This document shows positions 1 through 1,215 of a DNA stretch of 64,000 bases, in pieces. A program made the translations under genes and the position numbers. Below the pieces are notes generated by a model. The model saw nothing but the letters and a program-made list of their open reading frames with translations. It was not told the DNA's origin and did not search any database. Position 1 is the stretch's first letter, and each line of letters opens with the position of its first letter. Origin of the DNA: Mesorhizobium sp. (GTDB lineage: Bacteria > Pseudomonadota > Alphaproteobacteria > Rhizobiales > Rhizobiaceae); NCBI GenBank assembly GCA_004017535.1, contig SAJS01000022.1, positions 39,231 through 103,230 of the forward strand, in the 5' to 3' direction.

Positions 1-1012
1 CGTCGCCGCGCTTGATGGTGCCCGAGATCGGGCAGGTCTCGACGCGCCGGCCGTTGACGCGCACGAACATCTCCGGCGAGGCGCCGATCAGATATTCGTT
101 CTCGCCGAGATTGATGAAGAAGGAATAGGGCGAGGGGTTGATTGATTTCAGCTTGCGCGAGATGTCGGAGGGCTGGGTCTCGCAGCGCTCGTAGAACATC
201 TGTCCAGGCACAACCTCGAACAGGTCGCCGCGCTTGAAGCTTTCCATGGCGCGCCGCACCAGGTTGGCGTATTCGCCCGGTTCGTGGTCGCCGCGCGGCG
301 GGATGCGGTCGGCGGTCTTGAACGGCTCGACATGGGCATCGCGGGCCAGGCCTTCGGTCGAAAAGCCCTCGCCGGAATAGTCGTAGCGGTCGGTCCAGGC
401 TTTGGTCGAATAATGGTCGACCACGAGAATCTCGTCTGGCAGGAACAGCACCAGGTCGCGCTGGCTTTCCTTGCGCTCGAGCTTGTAGTCAACCGGGTCG
501 AACTGGAAGGCGAGGTCATAGCCGAAGGCGCCATAAAGGCCAAGATTGGCGTCCTCGGCGGTCTTGAACAAAGCGGTGATGGCCCGCAGCACGGTGAAGA
601 CGGACGGAACGCGGCTGCGCTCCTCCTCGGTGAAGACGCGGCCGGGTTTTGCCACATCGAGGCGGATGAGCGTCTTCGAGGTCTCCGCGATCATCACCTC
701 GCTCAGCGCGCCAAGTGCCTTTCCGATAGCAGGCAGGAGCACTTCGCCGCGCCTGTTCAGCGCTTCGATGCGCATGGCGCGGCCGCGCGCGGAGATCACC
801 AGCGGCGGGTCGATGATGGCGGTATCCCAGCGCGTGTAGCGGCCCGGATACTCGTAGTTCGAGGAAAACACCGCGCCGCGGCGTGAATTCAGGCCGTCGA
901 CATAGGCATCGATCGCGCCTTCATAGGGCCTGTCGTGCCGTTCGCGGGTGATCGTCACGCCGCCCGCGGTGACGAAGCGCTCCGCCCCGTTGTCCAGAAC
1001 TTTAGTCGTCAT
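1..1012 (-). CDS. trpE(G): Anthranilate synthase, fused TrpE(G) type, 5' part only (337 codons visible)
   Basis: Converts chorismate plus glutamine to anthranilate, the first committed step of tryptophan synthesis, in the cytoplasm. Read on the minus strand from ATG at 1012, the protein begins [13 protein letters not shown] and runs open to the window edge. The TrpE motif NPSPYSFF, part of the tryptophan-binding/chorismate region, is near residue 299, followed by GASPEMFVR and [10 protein letters not shown] typical of chorismate-utilising enzymes. In rhizobia this protein carries a C-terminal glutamine amidotransferase (TrpG) domain; that part lies outside the window, so the fusion is inferred from the close rhizobial match and the trpL leader upstream. 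The 3' end is cut by the window, not by mutation. Confidence 0.93.
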
Positions 1013-1056: not shown

Positions 1057-1096
1057 CTAAAAAACAAATGGCCGCCCGGACATTCCGCTGCGGCCA
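1057..1096 (-). terminator. trp attenuator: intrinsic terminator stem with U tract
   Basis: On the minus strand TGGCCGC (1096-1090) pairs perfectly with GCGGCCA (1075-1069) and is followed by TTTGTTTTTT. The 5' arm can alternatively pair with AGCGGCCG lying directly after the trpL stop (about 1133-1125), which gives an antiterminator. This is the expected switch for tryptophan-controlled readthrough into trpE(G). Confidence 0.85.
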
Positions 1097-1134
1097 CCCT
1101 CATTTTCACGCGCACACGCACGAACCGGCCGCTG

Positions 1135-1179
1135 TCAGCGAGCCCACCACCAAACGGTCTTGTTCGAACGCATGTTCAT
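1135..1179 (-). CDS. trpL: trp operon leader peptide (14 aa, three consecutive Trp codons)
   Basis: Minus-strand ORF ATG(1179) to TGA(1135) encodes MNMRSNKTVWWWAR. Three adjacent TGG codons sit just before the stop, the hallmark of a ribosome-mediated tryptophan attenuator; the Sinorhizobium meliloti trpL peptide also ends in WWWAR. Ribosome stalling at the Trp codons would decide which downstream hairpin forms. The A of ATG is 8 nt past the last base of a -10 box, so the transcript probably starts at the start codon itself (leaderless), as described for S. meliloti trpL. Confidence 0.92.
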   Translation of the reverse strand: MNMRSNKTVWWWAR

Positions 1180-1186
1180 GCCGACT

Positions 1187-1215
1187 CCCATAGCGGCGAA
1201 TGCTTGGATCGGCAA
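1187..1215 (-). promoter_or_regulatory. sigma70-type promoter of trpL-trpE(G)
   Basis: On the minus strand, TTGCCG (1215-1210) and TATGGG (1192-1187) are separated by exactly 17 bases. The expected start falls at or next to 1179, the A of the trpL ATG. The call is from sequence alone. Confidence 0.7.

Follow-up and report, generated by a model that had tools for sequence, protein, structure and literature searches.

The closest described system is the attenuator RNA rnTrpL of S. meliloti (= RcsR1, RF02552) with its leader peptide peTrpL, whose two founding papers are reportedly Baumgardt 2016 and Melior 2019. According to published work, this RNA begins with the trpL AUG and is translated (PMC7298713, PMC10117765), RcsR1 and rnTrpL share one transcription start position (PMC7143759), the 14-aa peTrpL ends in WWWAR (PMC7298713), and both RNA and peptide act in trans (PMC7298713, PMC7143759). 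Among the papers searched, none combined Mesorhizobium with a trp attenuator, and a study on M. huakuii sRNAs (PMC5596092) named RcsR1 only in its discussion and references and contained no word starting with trp.

The leader considered here lies in a window of 64,000 nt, i.e. the whole stretch of DNA that was analysed (G000:C14:39231-103230 of a 6.86-Mb genome). It very probably represents the rhizobial trp attenuator (rnTrpL/RcsR1 and peTrpL) in Mesorhizobium, with transcription starting at or near the trpL AUG and with Trp-dependent readthrough. The genus agrees with TrpE(G) similarity: among the best 80 matches listed, from which the organism's own record may be absent, the nearest named relative was Mesorhizobium sp. 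SOD10 (97% over 337 aa). The features of the locus are the following.

1210..1215, minus strand: -35 element TTGCCG, from the sequence; TTG at the same spacing in the stretches passing the strict test below
1187..1192, minus strand: -10 element TATGGG, separated by 17 bp from the -35 and by 7 nt from the ATG
1135..1179, minus strand: trpL, leader peptide MNMRSNKTVWWWAR; transcription predicted to begin with the A of its ATG (1179)
1144..1152, minus strand: three Trp codons, the sensing site
1127..1144, minus strand: 1:2 hairpin around the trpL stop (GGC-u-CGCU / AGCG-GCC)
1127..1132, minus strand: region 2, GCGGCC, 5' arm of the antiterminator
1090..1095, minus strand: region 3, GGCCGC, common to antiterminator and terminator, from helix counts on relatives
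1066..1099, minus strand: terminator stem-loop (3:4), from the fold and compensatory changes
1059..1068, minus strand: U-tract UUUGUUUUUU, from sequence and fold
1..1012, minus strand: 5' part of trpE(G), continuing beyond the window, from a TIGR01815 match on the longer locus L039

The anatomy announced by the original prediction was confirmed nearly to the base. The -35/-10 pair with its 17-bp spacing is read directly (TTGCCG at 1215-1210, TATGGG at 1192-1187), and the ORF behind it has 14 codons (ATG 1179-1177, stop TGA 1137-1135), three of them adjacent Trp codons, as befits an attenuator peptide ahead of a Trp biosynthesis gene. That gene, whose ATG lies downstream at 1012, encodes a protein that matched TIGR01815 (TrpE-clade3) with 1225.5 bits over 692 of 717 positions in L039 and bears chorismate-binding and glutamine amidotransferase (GATase) domains, i.e. 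a fused TrpE(G); trpD sits on a different contig (L207). The terminator stem UGGCCGC/GCGGCCA is exact at 1096-1069 and extends to 1099-1066 with G-U pairs; it contains an internal loop, and its 3' arm includes GCGGCC at 1075-1070. A second GCGGCC, 3' of the trpL stop (1132-1127), complements the GGCCGC of the terminator 5' arm (1095-1090) and is the antiterminator arm that had been proposed, so that sequence, fold and counts on relatives agree on a mutually exclusive antiterminator and intrinsic terminator. From the trpL AUG to the end of the U-tract the RNA would measure 121 nt, close to the 120 nt foreseen. The segment between regions 2 and 3 differs among relatives: a CGCGTGCGCGTGAAA-like stretch (about 1115-1100 in the window, columns 68-84 or so of the family alignment) recurs in many Mesorhizobium-side leaders, and Rhizobium-side leaders carry TTGACCAGTCATG in its place.

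Likeness to the S. meliloti system thus covers the position upstream of trpE(G), the 14-aa peptide ending in WWWAR, an RNA of about 116-121 nt beginning at the trpL AUG (here predicted) and the same order of arms, while the N-terminal half of the peptide and the middle of the RNA differ. The S. meliloti RNA and peptide are reported to act in trans, whereas the Mesorhizobium counterpart is known from sequence. With the peTrpL attenuators of Agrobacterium and Bradyrhizobium, as described in PMC7298713, it shares adjacent Trp codons and little other sequence conservation, their leader peptides having other sequences and 19 and 15 aa. The enterobacterial trp leader (RF00513) resembles it by adjacent Trp codons, mutually exclusive arms and an intrinsic terminator. 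Unlike what is predicted for the Mesorhizobium leader, E. coli trpL has a Shine-Dalgarno (SD) sequence and a 5' leader, along with TrpR repression.

Rfam models drew a narrower line. Across the whole window nothing matched at the gathering threshold: RF02552 aligned with the leader over model positions 1-96, i.e. at full length but weakly (22 bits for a gathering score of 60), and RF00513 gave 14.9 bits (E 3.3, cut-off 41). Among 19 relatives scanned, RF02552 attained its cut-off in six (S. fredii, E. aridi, two Rhizobium, Mycoplana and A. vitis, with 75-100 bits), each match beginning 16 nt inside the trpL ORF that precedes trpE(G), and fell short in 13, three Mesorhizobium among them. By position and order the window leader, for which transcription is predicted, occupies the same orthologous place in front of trpE(G). 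Judged by sequence, it is the same architecture at that place, outside the limit that Rfam draws for RcsR1; it extends the known S. meliloti system as an ordinary new example and is not a new system.

Distribution was followed with DNA, protein and structure searches. A 211-bp leader probe matched all 119 genus genomes searched, a subset of a larger group; a contig end truncates the match in G007, and two genomes have it split. In these two, G016 and G343, the split lies near the trpE start and the query pieces overlap, as if a short duplication or insertion preceded trpE. A second DNA match in G029 (E 8.8e-4) was discarded, being a stretch in which no leader is visible. At E <= 1e-100, TrpE(G) had a match in 115 of 121 genomes of the family and in 61 of 297 of the order. 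Leaders were read in the best-scoring loci (30 from the order search, 80 from the TrpE(G) similarity search and 28 new ones from the family search), so this sample is weighted to close kin; all 138 carried a run of at least two Trp codons, and WWW was present in 126. Altogether 198 loci were read, some genomes more than once; four are identical to the window locus from -45 to +150, three of them from the same genome.

A covariance model built from 51 leaders, the window's own included, found one copy in the genome at E <= 0.001 (112.7 bits, E 1e-29, a score to be read with the window leader being part of the model). The same model, with stricter filters, matched 27 of 150 order genomes at E <= 0.001, the weakest of which, some partial, may be due to chance. 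A genome search with TGGTGGTGGGCTCGCTGA returned three one-mismatch matches and an exact second copy (L001); the latter was rejected as a second attenuator, since it sits within a 427-aa ORF, read in a different frame, and the covariance model recognises a single copy.

The 51 family leaders were also aligned for helix tests. The terminator helix was paired in 84.0% of cells and contained 26 cells changed on both sides, for a shuffled mean of 11.6 (none of 500 shuffles as high), and its covariation score of 0.165 exceeded the 0.061-0.113 of slid versions. Two figures are less favourable: the number of pairs with both-side change (five) was equalled or exceeded in 150 of 500 shuffles, and a version slid by -3 reached 27 both-side-changed cells, though with just 52.3% paired. 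The clearest covarying pair, 98-128, was G-C in 42 leaders and A-U in eight. The 2:3 helix was paired in 97.1% of cells (at most 58.5% in slid versions) and the family-wide 1:2 helix in 92.8% (at most 49.8%); in these 51 leaders neither showed covariation because both are almost invariant. RNAalifold favoured a 1:2 form in which the Trp codons pair with GCGGCC. A U-run 3' of the stem was detected by script in 157 of 162 distinct leaders, and the other five, on reading, have a similar stem with weaker tracts.

Such comparative evidence is far stronger than the fold of the single RNA for the leader being more than chance: the 123-nt RNA 1179-1057 folds at -52.3 kcal/mol with z = -2.61, and two of 200 dinucleotide shuffles fold as well. 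An accidental meeting of a WWW ORF with a G+C-rich hairpin might draw on simple promoter and terminator scans that stay at background and on the additional exact TGGTGGTGGGCTCGCTGA just mentioned. It is refuted by the comparison, and its probability is negligible, given a leader conserved in every genus genome searched and in every protein-fetched locus, the covariation of the terminator and the covariance model score.

The promoter is poor by E. coli rules, its -35 agreeing with TTGACA at four of six positions and its -10 with TATAAT at three of six. An E. coli-type promoter scan and a simple terminator scan listed neither of the two elements of the window, and the case therefore rests on comparison, by which the promoter is strongly supported. 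A strict test asked for TTG, 16-18 bp, TA, and 5-9 nt between the end of the -10 and the ATG. Of 143 distinct upstream stretches, 138 passed it, whereas mononucleotide shuffles of the 143 averaged 1.2 and never exceeded 5. When 15 loci were recovered and TTTACA, TTTACG and TGGACA were allowed as -35, a widening made after the five misses had been seen, 157 of 158 passed, 155 with 17-bp spacing; the single miss, L054, passes if the ATG is taken two codons further up. In 126 of the 127 distinct stretches fetched by protein, a -35/-10 pair ended 6-8 nt short of the trpL ATG, while only 6 of the 2017 ATG triplets of the window passed the same test. This is the arrangement of a promoter set for a start at the start codon, as in leaderless mRNAs.

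A leaderless start of the trpL transcript is thus likely, since the geometry is fixed to the AUG and also occurs at L119 (S. fredii USDA 205) and L131 (Ensifer aridi), two loci coding for the peptide of S. meliloti, where the RNA is reported to be leaderless and translated. The distance from -10 to ATG was 7 nt in most loci, the window included (spacing 17), and 6 or 8 nt in the remainder, so that the exact start could vary by a base. The start foreseen at the trpL ATG agrees with the promoter geometry, and its exact placement at 1179 is a prediction. The base before the ATG was C in 117 of the 127 protein-fetched stretches. In 120 distinct trpL 5' ends, position +4 was A in 105 and position +7 was A in 100, which may be linked to leaderless initiation.

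A trp attenuator with a conventional 5' leader would instead start upstream, and translation of trpL would use the SD-like GGGAG or begin with the in-frame ATG of 1191-1189, giving the 18-aa MGVGMNMRSNKTVWWWAR. Besides the existence of this ATG, the SD-like energy of -6.8 before ATG 1179 and the E. coli-type scan, which yields no promoter at trpL, speak for it. Yet GGGAG and the upstream ATG belong to the -10 and are not conserved in many relatives (TAATGG, TATTGG, TAACAA), SD energies before trpL have a median of -3.3 and reach -6 or below in 39 of 162 leaders, and the promoter geometry is fixed to the downstream ATG. Of 62 leaders, 60 showed less SD complementarity ahead of trpL than ahead of trpE; the window belongs to the two that did not (-6.8 before trpL, -6.4 before trpE) because its -10 runs into GGGAG. 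Overall, a conventional leader appears decidedly improbable.

Anatomy, mutually exclusive arms, conservation and promoter geometry being directly seen, we infer start site, ribosome stalling and readthrough as follows for the leaderless attenuator. RNA polymerase would start at the trpL AUG, or about one base from it, and a ribosome would initiate on a message devoid of 5' leader. With ample charged tRNA-Trp, the ribosome would reach the trpL stop, region 2 would be covered or paired with region 1, 3:4 would form, and transcription would end some 121 nt from its start. Under a shortage of charged tRNA-Trp, the ribosome would stall on UGG UGG UGG, region 2 would pair with region 3 and trpE(G) would be transcribed. 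Synteny, peptide, structure and conservation all support the proposed Trp attenuator before trpE(G).

Upstream surroundings are more variable. In 55 of 198 loci, trpL was preceded at a distance of at most 150 nt by a succinylglutamate desuccinylase-like gene (Pfam AstE_AspA_cat); where found in others (2.9 kb searched), it was 151-400 nt away in two, 401-1500 nt in 19 and further in one. In the window, a DUF1330 gene (minus strand) and an opposite ORF, which we take to be MarR-like, intervene between the two (1344-2210), as they also do before trpL in four further loci, two of them from the same genome. Beyond the -35, the window sequence was 26-29% identical (ungapped) to four relatives with other upstream sequence and 47-53% identical (ungapped) to three nearer ones. 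Its -35 hexamer, TTGCCG, corresponds mostly to TTGCGC, TTGCGT, TTGCAC or TTGCAT elsewhere in the MNMR group. The locus may be viewed as a natural promoter variant, in which TTGC remains 17 bp from the -10.

Trans action of the released RNA and peptide, for which trpDC and sinI are the targets of RcsR1, would be carried over from S. meliloti by analogy. It is said to be conserved in Agrobacterium and Bradyrhizobium in PMC7143759 and PMC7298713, which argues against an attenuator acting in cis only, whose RNA and peptide would be by-products devoid of a trans role in this genome. Scans for pairing with trpD did not single this gene out, as the cis-only reading would have it: in a plain duplex scan, 7 of 27 background genes equalled or surpassed trpD, and in a crude accessibility-weighted one 4 of 27. 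The test is however without power, because a signal was expected in the two Sinorhizobium-type controls and none was seen (S. fredii 21/27, E. aridi 5/27, accessibility-weighted); further genomes gave 18/27 (M. amorphae), 24/27 (Mesorhizobium SOD10) and 7/27 (LMG 17147) by the same scan, as read beside these signal-free controls. The trpD loci of two more genomes (L212, L214) were left out of the comparison. A role in cis only is thus a serious possibility, if somewhat short of an even chance.

The composition of the leader peptide bears on its possible role. Between the first Met and the Trp run (1179-1153 in the window), 62 diverse leaders contained no Asp and one Glu among 503 residues, together with 63 Lys and Arg. 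From base composition by codon position, 23.4 acidic residues would be expected, with a minimum of 12 in 1000 shuffles, numbers that overstate independence because the sequences are related. Where it spans two codons, GA is frequent (96 of 441, 74 expected); the depletion is thus tied to the reading frame, although GA is scarce at codon positions 2-3 as well (1 of 503, 5.1 expected). For comparison, the 62 TrpE proteins, with starts picked on SD energy, had 120 acidic residues among the 558 that make up their first nine positions behind the start, and six of 113 distinct leader peptides had an acidic residue anywhere. In the MNM group, with 24 distinct trpL, codon counts mix synonymous and non-synonymous changes and are too few to use. 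PMC7298713, the one paper searched for charge terms, did not mention acidic depletion in the matching passages; S. meliloti peTrpL is reported in RNA-protein complexes. Conceivably, the trpL peptide of Hyphomicrobiales is selected as a small, basic, acid-free peptide because it is active in trans and not only a ribosome clock, the leaderless start letting the attenuator RNA serve as its mRNA. We regard this as rather unlikely, and attenuation or a ribosome-tunnel constraint would explain the depletion as well as a trans role.

Through this leader, a well-studied regulator is extended to Mesorhizobium, including a leader that, like 13 of the 19 relatives scanned, is missed by the Rfam RcsR1 model at its cut-off. 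Scarcity of acidic residues offers a simple lead on selection of the peptide beyond its Trp codons. Since the relatives examined hardly differ in their leaderless promoter geometry, results obtained in S. meliloti can be carried over to them and tested.
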